Assembly: GCA_903862855.1 (NCBI GenBank) | Contig: CAIOZW010000362.1 | Span: 1-43,362 of the forward strand | Length of the DNA: 43,362 bases | DNA from: an uncultured Acidobacteriota bacterium | GTDB lineage: Bacteria; Acidobacteriota; Blastocatellia; RBC074 | Reading direction: 5' to 3' | Shown: piece by piece, positions 24,336 to 32,295 of the stretch | How the letters are laid out: each line of letters opens with the position of its first letter | Numbering within the stretch: the first letter of the stretch is position 1 | Translations under genes and position numbers: made by a program | The notes under the pieces: generated by a model | Databases searched by the model: none | What the model was told of the DNA's origin: nothing | Seen by the model: the letters and a program-made list of their open reading frames with translations, nothing else

Positions 24336-25961
24336 ATGAAGTTCAAGATGATCAGGACCGCCGAGGAAGCGGCAATTGCGCATTACGAGCTGGAGCGATT
24401 CATGCTCGAAACCCCTTACGGTTCGCTGGGATCGGCAGAGGGAATCATCGCCCGGACTCCCCCGGCGGAGATCGAATGGTCGATCAGTTGGGGCAAGCTG
24501 ATACTGAGCTGGTGGGATGCGGAGCAATCTCAAAGTGTGCGCATCACCGGTTACACGATCGAGTCGACGCGTGCCATCCTGCTTGTCATCCAAGGACTCT
24601 CAGCAGAGGCCTGGCAACTGGTAATCGATCGACAGAGAGAGGGTCGAGGGGCCGCACTTGAAGTTGCACCAGAGGATCTGCGTTCGCGGCGGAAATGGTA
24701 CGCCGCACGGCTCGCGGCCGTGGTTCGCCATTCACTTCCCGGCGTGCGAATCCGTCACTGGTCGGCCGGCGCCAATTTGCGCCATCGTGTTCCCGGGTGC
24801 TTTGCCCGGCTCATCCTGACCAGACGGAGTGAGACCATCCTCGCCATCGGCGCCAGTCAAGCCGAGAAGGATACTCCGATCGACAACCTTATCGCCGCCG
24901 GGCTGATCTGGTTTTGCAGTTACAATGCCGATCGACATCCGCCGGGGCGGGCCACCAGACTCTGGTTCTTTGCCGCTGGTGAGCGGGCACTGACCCTCAG
25001 CGAGAGACTGCCGCTGCTCCGTGCCGGTGATGGCCGGGAACGCCTCGCCTGTTTTGAGTTCGATGAGCTGCGGGGGGAGATTACGGAGATCAGAGCGGTC
25101 AGTCAACTCGAGCTGCTCACCTCACCGCCGCGCGATCTGCTTTGGCCTGAGGTGACGGCAAGTCTCGACCCGGCAGTTCAGGAGTGGCACGGGCGGCTTG
25201 CCGGGCTCATCCCAGAGATGCCAACGCTGATCGAGCCACGCTATCGACCCGCGCGGCGATCGATCTGCTATGAGATCAATGGTCTTGAGTTCGCCCGCCT
25301 CCCCATCGATGACTGGCGTTCGGCCGAGTTTGGTATCCCGGGGGAGCCGGGACGTACCGGACGGAGACAGCGTCCGCTGACCGAGCGGAGCCTTCCAGAG
25401 CTGCGCCAGCTCGTCGAAGAGATCTGCCGACTTCGCCACGCAGCGACCCCGGACCAGCGACACCCCATCTTTCGGCTCCGAACCGAGGGCTGGCTCGAGT
25501 CATTGCTGCGCCGCAATATCCGGGCCATCGATCCCGAACTCGATCCGCGCCATGTCTATTCACAGATCCCTGCCTGGCACGCCGATCAACGTGGCGTGAT
25601 CGACCTCTTGACCATCAAGAACGAATACAGCTCCAGCCCGGAGAGAGGACGTCTGGTCGTTATCGAGATCAAGGCAACAGAAGACCTCACCCTTCCGCTC
25701 CAGGGGCTCGATTACTGGATGAGAATCGAACAGGCACGGGTACGGGGCGAGTTTGGGCGTCACGGTCTCTTTGCCGGGGCGGAGATCGCCGACCGTCCGC
25801 CATTGCTCTACCTTGTCGCACCGCGCCTCCGCTTCCACCGCAGCTTCCAGACGATCGCTCGCTGCATCGCGCCGGAGATCGATGCCTGGCGAATCGGACT
25901 CAACAGCAACTGGCGCGAAGGTGTTCGAGCCCATACCCTCGATTTGCTCCGCGATCTCTGA
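24336..25961 (+). CDS. Uncharacterised protein with C-terminal PD-(D/E)XK-like nuclease motifs
   Basis: A 541-residue soluble protein that I cannot place in a named family. The C-terminal third has the order expected for a PD-(D/E)XK fold: a helix with glutamates (EGWLESLLRRN near 388-398), then GVIDLL with D423, a strand VVIEIK with E444 and K446, and a helix starting PLQGLDYW with Q456. The spacing resembles NucS/DUF91-like nuclease domains. The first 300 residues contain many conserved-looking tryptophans (WSISWGK, LSWWDAE) and no recognised motif. GGAGGG sits 8 bases before the ATG. TruB follows after 46 bases. No toxin, phage or restriction gene is adjacent, so a housekeeping DNA/RNA role is as likely as defence. 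Confidence 0.7.
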   Translation: MKFKMIRTAEEAAIAHYELERFMLETPYGSLGSAEGIIARTPPAEIEWSISWGKLILSWWDAEQSQSVRITGYTIESTRAILLVIQGLSAEAWQLVIDRQREGRGAALEVAPEDLRSRRKWYAARLAAVVRHSLPGVRIRHWSAGANLRHRVPGCFARLILTRRSETILAIGASQAEKDTPIDNLIAAGLIWFCSYNADRHPPGRATRLWFFAAGERALTLSERLPLLRAGDGRERLACFEFDELRGEITEIRAVSQLELLTSPPRDLLWPEVTASLDPAVQEWHGRLAGLIPEMPTLIEPRYRPARRSICYEINGLEFARLPIDDWRSAEFGIPGEPGRTGRRQRPLTERSLPELRQLVEEICRLRHAATPDQRHPIFRLRTEGWLESLLRRNIRAIDPELDPRHVYSQIPAWHADQRGVIDLLTIKNEYSSSPERGRLVVIEIKATEDLTLPLQGLDYWMRIEQARVRGEFGRHGLFAGAEIADRPPLLYLVAPRLRFHRSFQTIARCIAPEIDAWRIGLNSNWREGVRAHTLDLLRDL

Positions 25962-26994: not shown

Positions 26995-28206
26995 CTACTT
27001 GACCGAACCGTGCGGATCGATAACAAACTTCTTCGCGGCACCCTGATCAAAGTCCTTGTACCCTTTCGGCGCTTCATCCAGACTGATCATTGTCACATTG
27101 ACCGCTTTGGCCGGGTGGACACGATCGTGGAGAATCGCCCTCATCAACTGTCGATTGTAGCGAAGTACCGGGCACTGGCCGGTATGAAATGAACAGGACT
27201 TGGCCCAACCGAGACCGAAGCGAATCGAGAGCGCGCCAATCTTTGCCGCCGCATCGACTCCACCCGGGTCGCCGGTCACATAGAGACCGGGAATGCCGAT
27301 CGATCCACCAGCTCGTGCAATCTCCTGGAGCGAGTTGAGCACCGTCGCCGGCCGCTCCACCACCGCGTCAGCACCATGCCCGCGGGCCTCAAATCCGACA
27401 CAGTCGACCGCACTGTCGACCTCGGGTTCGCCAAGAATTTCGGCGATCGCTTCGCCAAGGCTTGAGACCTTGCTCACATCGATCGTCTCACATCCAAAGC
27501 TGCGTGCCTGGGCAAGCCGCTCCGGAATCATATCCCCGACGATGACTACCGCCGCCCCAAGCAGCTGCGCTCCCGCGGCCGCCGCCAATCCGACCGGCCC
27601 CGCACCAGCAATGTAGACCGTCGAACCTGGCCCGACTCCCGCCTGCACACAACCGTGAAATCCGGTCGGGAAGATATCGGAGAGGAGCGTCAGATCTCGG
27701 ATCTTCTCCATCGCCTTTTCGCGGTTCGGAAACTTGATCAGATTGAAATCGGCATAGGGAACCATGACGTACTCAGCCTGTCCGCCAACCCATCCACCCA
27801 TGTCGACATAACCATAGGCTGCCCCGGGTCGGGCCGGATTGACCGTCAGACAGATTCCCGTCTTGCCTTCCCGGCAATTACGACAACGTCCACAGGCGAT
27901 ATTGAATGGGACCGTGACCAGATCCCCAACCTCGAGCATCTCGACATCGTTTCCCTTCTCGATCACCTCGCCAGTAATCTCGTGGCCGAGAATCAGCCCC
28001 TGCGGCGCCGTCGTCCTTCCGCGAACCATATGCTGATCCGATCCGCAGATATTGGTGGTGAGGACCTTCAGAATTACTCCATGCGGTGCATCCTTCCCCC
28101 CGAATGGATCGGTCTCGCTCTTCGGCATCCGCAACTTTGGATAGTCGATGGACTTGATCTCTACCTTGCCAGGCTCGATGTATGCGACTCCACGATTTGT
28201 TGCCAC
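26995..28206 (-). CDS. fdhA: Glutathione-independent formaldehyde dehydrogenase / aldehyde dismutase type
   Basis: A 403-residue zinc alcohol dehydrogenase (MDR) of the branch that includes Pseudomonas putida formaldehyde dehydrogenase. That enzyme keeps NAD(H) tightly bound and can dismutate aldehydes. Catalytic zinc ligands are in CGSD (C54) and GHE (H75, E76). Structural zinc cysteines are C105, C108, C111 and C119. The NAD motif GAGPVG lies near 194-199. The branch-typical SDIFPTGFHGCVQAGV and RGHGADAVVERPA stretches are present. The start is a GTG at 28206 with AAGGAGAG upstream. It is last in the minus-strand EutN operon, 78 bases after the small Cys-tail gene. It has no terminal encapsulation-peptide extension. 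Formaldehyde is the likely but unproven substrate; other short aldehydes are possible. Confidence 0.88.
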   Translation of the reverse strand: MATNRGVAYIEPGKVEIKSIDYPKLRMPKSETDPFGGKDAPHGVILKVLTTNICGSDQHMVRGRTTAPQGLILGHEITGEVIEKGNDVEMLEVGDLVTVPFNIACGRCRNCREGKTGICLTVNPARPGAAYGYVDMGGWVGGQAEYVMVPYADFNLIKFPNREKAMEKIRDLTLLSDIFPTGFHGCVQAGVGPGSTVYIAGAGPVGLAAAAGAQLLGAAVVIVGDMIPERLAQARSFGCETIDVSKVSSLGEAIAEILGEPEVDSAVDCVGFEARGHGADAVVERPATVLNSLQEIARAGGSIGIPGLYVTGDPGGVDAAAKIGALSIRFGLGWAKSCSFHTGQCPVLRYNRQLMRAILHDRVHPAKAVNVTMISLDEAPKGYKDFDQGAAKKFVIDPHGSVK

Positions 28207-28284: not shown

Positions 28285-28584
28285 TCAAAATCCAAAAGCA
28301 CGGCATTTGCCGCAGTCATCACAGGGACGATTCTCAAGCGGACAGGGTTGGCCAACGGCGGTCTCCCAGATAGCTGGCGGATTCCCCGTCTCCACCAACT
28401 GCCGCTGTGAAGGATGGGCTTCGTAGGCAGTTCCCGTCCAGGGTGAGTAGTACTCGCGTGGAGTACGCGGTGGCTCATTCACCGGCAGCGGTGACGGCGC
28501 AGTACCGGTGGTCGTGCTGCCAAGAGCATCGACCACGGCCTGGCGGACCATCTGCCGAATCAGATCGATCTTCTCACTGCTCAC
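28285..28584 (-). CDS. Small protein with encapsulation-peptide-like helix and four-cysteine tail
   Basis: A 99-residue protein of no family I recognise. Residues 3-22 (EKIDLIRQMVRQAVVDAL) form an amphipathic helix with hydrophobic residues at 6, 9, 12/13, 16/17 and 20/21, closely resembling the encapsulation peptides that dock enzymes to microcompartment shells. A Pro/Thr/Ser-rich linker (23-45) follows, then YYSPWTGTAYEAHPSQRQ. The tail contains C81, C88, C91 and C94 (CPLENRPCDDCGKC), fit for an iron-sulfur cluster or zinc. The GTG start overlaps the upstream EutN-type gene by 11 bases and has GGAGG before it. Position and helix suggest microcompartment cargo, adaptor or electron carrier; this is inference. 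Confidence 0.75.
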   Translation of the reverse strand: MSSEKIDLIRQMVRQAVVDALGSTTTGTAPSPLPVNEPPRTPREYYSPWTGTAYEAHPSQRQLVETGNPPAIWETAVGQPCPLENRPCDDCGKCRAFGF

Positions 28585-28861
28585 GCTGCTCCTCCACCTC
28601 TACCGTATCGACTATCCCGACAATCGCACTGTCGATCGCGGCCCCGATCTCTCCTGTCACCGCCGTCGAGGCCGACCAGCCATCCTGGATCACGAGCACC
28701 AGATCACCCTCACCGGAATCGACCGAATCAAGCGCCAGCATCGAGGCACCGCGAAGGCTGCCATCAGGATTGACCGGCTGAACCAGCATGATTCGTGTCT
28801 CATCGTAACGATGATTCTTCTGCGTCGCGACGACGTTGCCCAATACTCGCGCGAGGATCAT
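28574..28861 (-). CDS. EutN/CcmL-type microcompartment pentamer protein (second copy)
   Basis: A 95-residue shell vertex protein of the BMC-P (EutN/CcmL/PduN) family, which forms pentamers capping polyhedral microcompartments. The family layout is clear: ARVLGNVVATQKN at the N-terminus, LALDSVDSGEGDLVLVI in the middle, and DSAIVGIVDTVEV at the end. It has a short acidic C-terminal tail. Its ATG overlaps the stop of the preceding pentamer gene (ATGA, 28858-28861). It overlaps the small Cys-tail gene by 11 bases, so the three are strongly coupled. It is diverged from its neighbour, as expected for distinct vertex types rather than a recent duplication. Confidence 0.93.
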   Translation of the reverse strand: MILARVLGNVVATQKNHRYDETRIMLVQPVNPDGSLRGASMLALDSVDSGEGDLVLVIQDGWSASTAVTGEIGAAIDSAIVGIVDTVEVEEQREQ

Positions 28862-29163
28862 CGCGGATCTCCCTTCCGACCATCCCTGTCGAGGGTTTTG
28901 ACGTGATCCTCAGAATCGATGATCCCGACGATCGTGCAGTCGGTCGGCACTTCGCTTCCCGCGAATGGAAAACTGGCCTCTTTGCCACGACACCAGAAGA
29001 CCAGCTCGCCAACGCCTGCCCCGACCGAATCGATCGCGACCAGCGGGCGCCCCGTCGGCTGCAGCTGACCATCCAACGACTGGATCACCATCAACTTGCG
29101 GGCGAACAATCCGTCGTTCTTGACTGTCGAGACCACGTTTCCGATTACTCTTGCTATCTGCAT
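28858..29163 (-). CDS. EutN/CcmL-type microcompartment pentamer protein (first copy)
   Basis: A 101-residue BMC-P shell protein. Family features are MQIARVIGNVVSTVKN, then KLMVIQSLDG, VAIDSVGAGVGELVFWCRG and DCTIVGIIDSEDHV, with a charged C-terminal tail. It is the first gene of a four-gene minus-strand unit. GGAAGAGA precedes the ATG at 29163, and a plausible promoter lies about 55-80 bases upstream. No hexameric (Pfam BMC) shell gene is found anywhere in the window, so this operon would have to supplement a shell encoded elsewhere or build something unusual. Confidence 0.93.
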   Translation of the reverse strand: MQIARVIGNVVSTVKNDGLFARKLMVIQSLDGQLQPTGRPLVAIDSVGAGVGELVFWCRGKEASFPFAGSEVPTDCTIVGIIDSEDHVKTLDRDGRKGDPR

Positions 29164-29265: not shown

Positions 29266-29923
29266 TTGAACAACCTCTTTCGGGCGATCATCTTCGACTT
29301 TAACGGAGTGATCATCGACGACGAACCTCTTCATCAGGAGCTGCTTCGCCGGGTGATAATCGAAGAGAAGATGACCTTCGCCGATGGCGACTATGAGCAG
29401 TACTATCTCGGCCACAACGACCGGGCCTGCTTCCTGACCGCCCTGACCAGGCACAATCGTCCGGAAGCAGCGCAGATCGACCATATTAGCTCGCTGATCA
29501 TAAGGAAGACAGGCTATTACCACGAAGCCATCCGCTCGCGGAGTCTCCTCTTCCCCGGGCTTCCGGAGCTGATCATCCGGCTTGGCCAGCGCTATCCTCT
29601 GGCCATCGCCTCCGGCGCTCTGCGCGGCGAGATCGAGGCGGCCCTGGATGGCAGTGGAATCCTCGACCAGTTTGAGCTGATTGTTGCTGCCGAAGATGTC
29701 GAAAGGTCGAAACCCGATCCTGAAGGATTTCTCAAGGCCTGGCAAGGTCTTCGAAGAAGTATTCCCGACCTTGCCCCAGCCGAATGCCTGGTCATCGAGG
29801 ATTCGATTGCCGGCGTTACTGCCGCCAAGGCTGCCGGGATGGCCTGCCTCGCGGTAACAACCAGCTTTCCGGCTGCCAGATTGAGCCTTGCCGACTGGAT
29901 CTCTCCCGGCGTCGTCGAGTGGT

Positions 29924-29937
<14 letters not shown>
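29266..29937 (+). CDS. HAD family hydrolase, beta-phosphoglucomutase-like
   Basis: A 223-residue cytoplasmic phosphatase/phosphomutase of HAD subfamily IA. Motif I is DFNGVIIDDE (nucleophile aspartate near residue 11), motif II is ASGAL, motif III lysine is in RSKPDPEGF, and motif IV is VIEDSIAGVTAAKAAGM. The alpha-helical cap begins HQELLRR. The normal DxDG-type motif I reads DFNGV here, with Asn replacing the acid/base Asp. That change is typical of phosphatase or phosphonatase-like members and argues against true mutase activity. The start is a TTG at 29266 with GGAGG 8 bases upstream. It is divergent from the EutN operon, and its 3' end overlaps the SpoIIE-phosphatase gene by 14 bases on the other strand. 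Substrate unknown. Confidence 0.88.
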
Positions 29938-31747
<1,810 letters not shown>

Positions 31748-31812
31748 ATAATTTTCATTCGGGAATGTTTGTTTGCCGGACTTGCGCCAGGCGAACAGTC
31801 CGGCACCACAGG

Positions 31813-32295
31813 TCACTGCAGCGATTTGATAACCGCCAATATCTCGTCATCCGAAGGTCGAAAGAGGGGGAAGACAACCTTGCGATACCTGATGATCCCC
31901 TCACCATCGATTAATACCACTCCCCGCCGCACACCGGTAAAATTTTTCATCTGGTAGCTCCGCACAACCAGTCCTCCCTCATCGAAGAGGAGGGGAAATG
32001 GAAAATCGTGACTGGTGCTGAACTGCCGGTGTCGATCGAGACTGTCCGTGTTGATACCGACGATCTCGGCTCCAGTCTGCCGGTATTCACTCCAGCGATC
32101 ACGCACCGCGCAGAGCTGCCTGGTACACACGGGGGTGTCGTCTCCCGGATAGAAGATCAGTAGAACCGGCCGCCCCCGGAAGGAACTGAGCTGCCAGCGC
32201 CCGATTCGATCTCCCTCAACCATCGCCAAGTCGATCTCGGGCGCCACATCCCCGGGATCGGCACCTGTTGTTTTACGCTTATCATCCTCTTCCAT
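31813..32295 (-). CDS. Peroxiredoxin (BCP/AhpC-TSA type)
   Basis: A 160-residue thiol peroxidase. The peroxidatic centre is YPGDDTPVC with C57. C62 (CTRQLC), five residues later, is the likely resolving cysteine, as in atypical two-Cys BCP/PrxQ enzymes. The thioredoxin fold is complete: SSFRGRPVLLIFYP before the active site, FPFPLLFDEGG and GVVLIDGEGIIRYRK after it. There is no signal peptide. It lies 65 bases upstream of the SpoIIE-phosphatase gene on the same strand and may be co-transcribed. The family sequence PGDxTPxC is intact, so activity is expected. Confidence 0.9.
   Translation of the reverse strand: MEEDDKRKTTGADPGDVAPEIDLAMVEGDRIGRWQLSSFRGRPVLLIFYPGDDTPVCTRQLCAVRDRWSEYRQTGAEIVGINTDSLDRHRQFSTSHDFPFPLLFDEGGLVVRSYQMKNFTGVRRGVVLIDGEGIIRYRKVVFPLFRPSDDEILAVIKSLQ

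Follow-up and report, generated by a model that had tools for sequence, protein, structure and literature searches.

The window, a stretch of 43,362 nucleotides from an uncultured Acidobacteriota bacterium, carries on its minus strand a small gene directly behind two genes for BMC-P (EutN) shell proteins (Table 1). The minus strand of positions 28285-28584 is a single open frame of 99 codons plus stop, and the plus strand across the same interval is interrupted by stops. The two BMC-P genes (28574-28861 and 28858-29163) overlap by 4 nt, and the GTG start of the small gene lies 11 nt inside the BMC-P gene upstream of it, the small gene being the third in a tight BMC-P/BMC-P/small-protein unit. 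For most pairs of relatives with unsaturated synonymous change, the dN/dS of this gene is about 0.13-0.28, indicating that the protein is under purifying selection; the reading frame is real. The protein has no match in Pfam or NCBIfam, in agreement with the original prediction, which recognised no family, and its four cysteines are located at residues 81, 88, 91 and 94, as had been described there. Next to the BMC-P pair are genes for a HAD phosphatase (29266-29937), a GAF-SpoIIE phosphatase (29924-31816) and a peroxiredoxin (31813-32295), an arrangement that is conserved in two other genomes (G001 and G003), with the HAD and GAF-SpoIIE genes also kept in G007. Elsewhere in the window, positions 24336-25961 contain a 541-aa open reading frame without a Pfam match.

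Table 1 Features at the locus of the small gene, in window coordinates.
Feature	Position	Strand	Evidence
Small BMC-associated protein, 99 aa, GTG start	28285..28584, stop included	-	Open frame, purifying selection, phylum-wide homologues
GGAGG ribosome-binding-like site, 6 nt before the GTG start	28591..28595	-	Sequence
Encapsulation-peptide-like helix, residues 1-25	28510..28584	-	AlphaFold2 helix 3-25; helix-only HMM
Conserved HPSQ motif, residues 57-60, in an otherwise variable linker	28405..28416	-	H57 and S59 conserved in ≥90% of 28 sequences
C-terminal cysteine tail, residues 81-99 (CPLENRPCDDCGKCRAFGF)	28288..28344	-	C1, C2 and C4 in 87/87, C3 in 78/87
BMC-P (EutN) shell protein, 'GWSASTA' type, third of the ACI triplet	28574..28861	-	PF03319, E 1.6e-21; triplet order in relatives
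BMC-P (EutN) shell protein, 'CRGKEASFPF' type, second of the ACI triplet	28858..29163	-	PF03319, E 7.5e-29
FdhA, glutathione-independent formaldehyde dehydrogenase	26995-28206	same strand as small gene	TIGR02819, 737 bits

Many relatives share a common gene order consisting of a Rex repressor, a class II aldolase, BMC-H, three consecutive BMC-P genes and the small protein, with the Rex-type redox-sensing repressor adjoining the main locus. In the genome of the window, Rex, the class II aldolase, BMC-H, one BMC-P and a gamma carbonic anhydrase are located on another contig (C142), and a further contig (C237) encodes another BMC-H; the genome thus possesses the complete BMC-P triplet, two in the window and the third on C142, and at least one BMC-H. 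In gene order and cargo, these loci agree with the ACI microcompartment type as published, for which a class II aldolase with a C-terminal encapsulation peptide, a BMC-P triplet and BMC-H are described, together with a restriction to Acidobacteria (Sutter et al. 2021, PMC8217296). The genome has all of these elements in common with the ACI type, and differs in that its locus is divided between two or more contigs: the small gene and the second and third BMC-P genes of the triplet are in the window, apart from the main ACI locus. The main text of that work mentions 'several proteins of unknown function' for the ACI locus and contains no description of the small protein. At one locus (L017), the class II aldolase (PF00596) adjoins BMC-H and ends with LSLTKEELVELLLQSSQLLGSLRS, judged by eye to be a C-terminal encapsulation-peptide helix. 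The window's own genome yielded neither a PTAC gene nor a clear BMC-type aldehyde dehydrogenase bearing a targeting helix; of its 8 Aldedh matches, the two weakest were inspected and display no obvious targeting helix. The components expected of an ACI locus also include a hydroxyacid dehydrogenase (PF00389/02826) and a satellite aldehyde dehydrogenase of BMC type; at another locus (L208), a dehydrogenase-like frame follows the tail gene, as assessed by eye.

The small protein belongs to an undescribed family, so far found in Acidobacteriota only and nearly always encoded directly behind BMC-P genes. A single-sequence search of 58 related genomes recovered 8 clear relatives, all in the same family of organisms. 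Using a 50-position profile of the tail, the family was matched in 125 of 162 genomes of the class, with weaker matches spread across the phylum; the 20 weaker loci that were inspected all possess the same kind of C-terminal motif next to BMC-P genes. A scan of about 85,000 species with a DNA pattern for the tail yielded 84 loci, 83 of them readable in frame, and BMC-P is located immediately upstream on the same strand in all 78 that have upstream DNA (the other five end at the DNA edge and hence offer no upstream sequence to judge). Among 85 unique proteins collected by routes other than the scan, 81 have BMC-P upstream on the same strand, and two of the four exceptions are contig edges; in G116 and G119 the small gene is found about 28 and 16 kb, respectively, from BMC-P genes on the same contig. 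Within the class, BMC-P and the tail occur together in 123 genomes, BMC-P alone in 26, the tail alone in 2 and neither in 11 (Fisher p = 1.3e-6, indicative only as the genomes are related), the two tail-only genomes being 73% and 81% complete. In the 26 genomes with BMC-P and no detectable copy, the protein is either dispensable for some compartments or unrecognisable. The microcompartment association put forward in the original prediction is hence supported, as homologues adjoin EutN/BMC-P genes almost without exception in both profile search and scan, rather than occurring mainly elsewhere.

Outside Acidobacteriota, one pattern scan with one exact spacing, which is not exhaustive, gave no convincing case. 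Records titled as other groups, such as Acidimicrobiia, look like mislabelled metagenome-assembled genomes; in a record titled Cyanobacteria, probably likewise mislabelled (L259, JAIEMQ010000052.1), the family adjoins three BMC-P genes. A frame in G041 (L027) was discarded as a chance match, as it has no cysteine tail. We also note that genomes of genus g17 of the class (e.g. G021, G025 and G029) are near-complete and have neither EutN nor a copy of the tail family.

AlphaFold2 predicts a confident helix for residues 3-25 of the window protein (mean pLDDT of 90 for residues 1-10 and 93 for residues 11-20), followed by a low-confidence linker and a tail with short elements. The encapsulation-like character of this helix had initially been deduced from an amphipathic pattern, which does not stand out: the hydrophobic moment is not beyond chance when compared to shuffles (p = 0.16), and single-sequence amphipathicity was therefore dropped as evidence for targeting. 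The likeness itself is supported by a helix-only HMM derived from the N-terminal helix of the family and run on both ends of 1711 other open reading frames in the fetched loci. Ranks 1-13 are N-termini of RpiB, and 24 of the best 25 matches are RpiB or class II aldolase. RpiB loci are over-represented among the fetched loci, having been retrieved by an earlier search; with RpiB removed, 11 of the best 15 matches are class II aldolases (p = 6.5e-13), 8 of them via the C-terminus. The C-terminal helix of the class II aldolase is the published ACI encapsulation peptide (PMC8217296). As aldolases recur in the loci as BMC neighbours, the HMM reveals a resemblance to cargo helices and not targeting as such. 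Judged by sequence, the helix of the small protein resembles the encapsulation peptides found on other probable cargo proteins of these organisms. Relative to the layout sought in cargo, i.e. an amphipathic terminal helix of about 15-20 residues with a flexible linker, the protein displays the predicted helix, the low-confidence linker and the cargo-helix resemblance, with amphipathicity alone at chance level. Separately, a group of RpiB-like proteins (L091-L120, e.g. L094:1018-1791 and L098:1327-2121) combines an encapsulation-peptide-like N-terminus with an 'ITEADVR..' module corresponding to the C-terminal end of TIGR02536, and their genes are often found beside DeoC; these proteins are probably further microcompartment cargo in the class.

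The cysteine tail is located at the extreme C-terminus and follows the motif C-x(6-8)-C-x2-[C/S]-x(1-3)-C-x3-G-[F/H/Y]. The profile collected 87 unique sequences, all of which possess cysteines 1, 2 and 4; at the third position, 78 have Cys, 8 have Ser and one has Thr, and the proteins end with G-F, G-H or G-Y, in one case G-L. The gap between cysteines 1 and 2 comprises 7 or 8 residues in 86 of the 87 and 6 solely in the window copy. Of the CX6CX2CX2C tail first described, the four cysteines hence stand, whereas the CX6 spacing is peculiar to this copy and conservation is strict for three of the cysteines. Fer4-type and zinc-finger families gave no match for the family, a weak Fer4_2 hit (E 0.7) in 1 of 28 members falling short of a recognised Fe-S domain, and profile searches of solved structures returned nothing significant. 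Nevertheless, the cysteine pattern suggests that the tail probably binds metal, either as an Fe-S cluster or as zinc. A reminiscent small cysteine cluster (e.g. CTDCCTMGC) is found behind an N-terminal helix in DeoC (DERA) homologues (L096:2111-3031, L098:2142-3131 and L094:155-1015).

Eight members of the family are longer. In two, L084 (G033, 212 aa) and L028 (G015), a domain lies between helix and tail, and L207, L212, L213, L215, L208 and L179 possess shorter middles. TIGR02536, an ethanolamine utilization hypothetical protein, matches 4 of the 8 over the N-terminal helix and the middle domain; the best of these, L084, reaches 38.9 bits (E 7e-10), far short of the curated cut-off of 152.6 bits, and the window protein has no match. 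The C-terminal segment of TIGR02536 corresponds to the 'ITEADV' module of the RpiB-like proteins and not to the cysteine tail, and TIGR02536 matches in the class were rejected as family members since almost all of those inspected were this module. The predicted model of L084, with confidence mostly 80-90 over the middle domain, resembles the flavoproteins UbiX, PPC decarboxylase and DmrB (Foldseek probability 0.99-1.00, with low TM-scores of about 0.35-0.44 by query length), a likeness in predicted fold to a domain that is absent from the window protein. In the simplest reading, a helix-flavoprotein-tail protein was probably the source of the helix-plus-tail layout, having lost its middle in most lineages.

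Based on these analyses, we propose, with a probability of roughly 0.6, that the small protein serves the ACI-type microcompartment as an accessory cargo or adaptor, with a shell-docking helix and a C-terminal metal site. The protein would be made together with two vertex (BMC-P) proteins, and its N-terminal helix would dock it inside the shell, as encapsulation peptides do. The flexible linker would then hold out the C-terminal Cys4, sometimes Cys3, metal site. An Fe-S cluster at this site may serve to balance redox in the lumen; alternatively, the site may hold a structural zinc with which another cargo enzyme is gripped. The present layout would be what remains of the longer ancestor, and the presumed loss of its central FMN-type domain makes us lean slightly towards a redox role. 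Taken further, and as a speculation that we consider rather improbable, the family may represent phylum-specific encapsulated electron carriers, in which an Fe-S tail docked to the shell, and formerly linked to a flavin domain, would pass electrons within the lumen or via the BMC-P corners.

The small protein may instead serve as an assembly scaffold, a possible but less favoured explanation, in which the helix attaches to the shell, and linker and tail bind a cargo enzyme or BMC-P, thereby nucleating the compartment; the cysteines would then be structural (zinc or disulfide) and not redox-active. It would then work in the manner of the carboxysome adaptors CcmN and CsoS2, which have a terminal segment that binds the shell, a flexible linker and a distinct module for binding. 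The small protein shares this layout, and to our knowledge neither adaptor has this cysteine tail. Adaptor-like features are the helix, the variable disordered or coiled-coil linker and the conserved C-terminal motif, including the G-F/H/Y at the very end, in a gene that is coupled to BMC-P. However, the flavoprotein-like fold among the long relatives points to chemistry, and the absence of the small protein from 26 genomes with BMC-P also argues against a scaffold. It is unlikely that the protein is a vertex partner, in direct contact with BMC-P pentamers so as to modify or plug the corners, and not luminal cargo. The gene is tied to BMC-P and not to cargo enzymes, and stays with BMC-P even when these genes are split from the main locus, as in the window, but gene order alone is no proof of contact and the helix resembles those that target cargo.

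A partnership with FdhA, as its recruiter (a role suggested in the original prediction) or its electron partner, was rejected as very improbable: the gene is indeed next door, 78 nt downstream on the same strand, but it adjoins the small gene only in the window's genome (G000) and in the sole other genome of the genus examined (G001), and the other relatives inspected have unrelated genes at this position. Finally, the chance that the frame is spurious or decaying and without function is negligible, for while it is short, lacks a known family and shares merely 21-51% identity with 27 aligned relatives, such a reading is contradicted by the selection on it, by phylum-wide conservation and synteny and by the invariant cysteines of the tail.

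ACI compartments are present in one of the major groups of soil bacteria. A small, near-constant component tied to BMC-P provides a handle on both their assembly and their chemistry, and its size permits direct production and testing. If the tail is a zinc adaptor, the protein would represent a minimal natural cargo-docking tag, and if it carries an Fe-S cluster, an unusual encapsulated redox module. Should the electron-carrier reading be true, ACI compartments would rebalance redox cofactors without a classical alcohol dehydrogenase.
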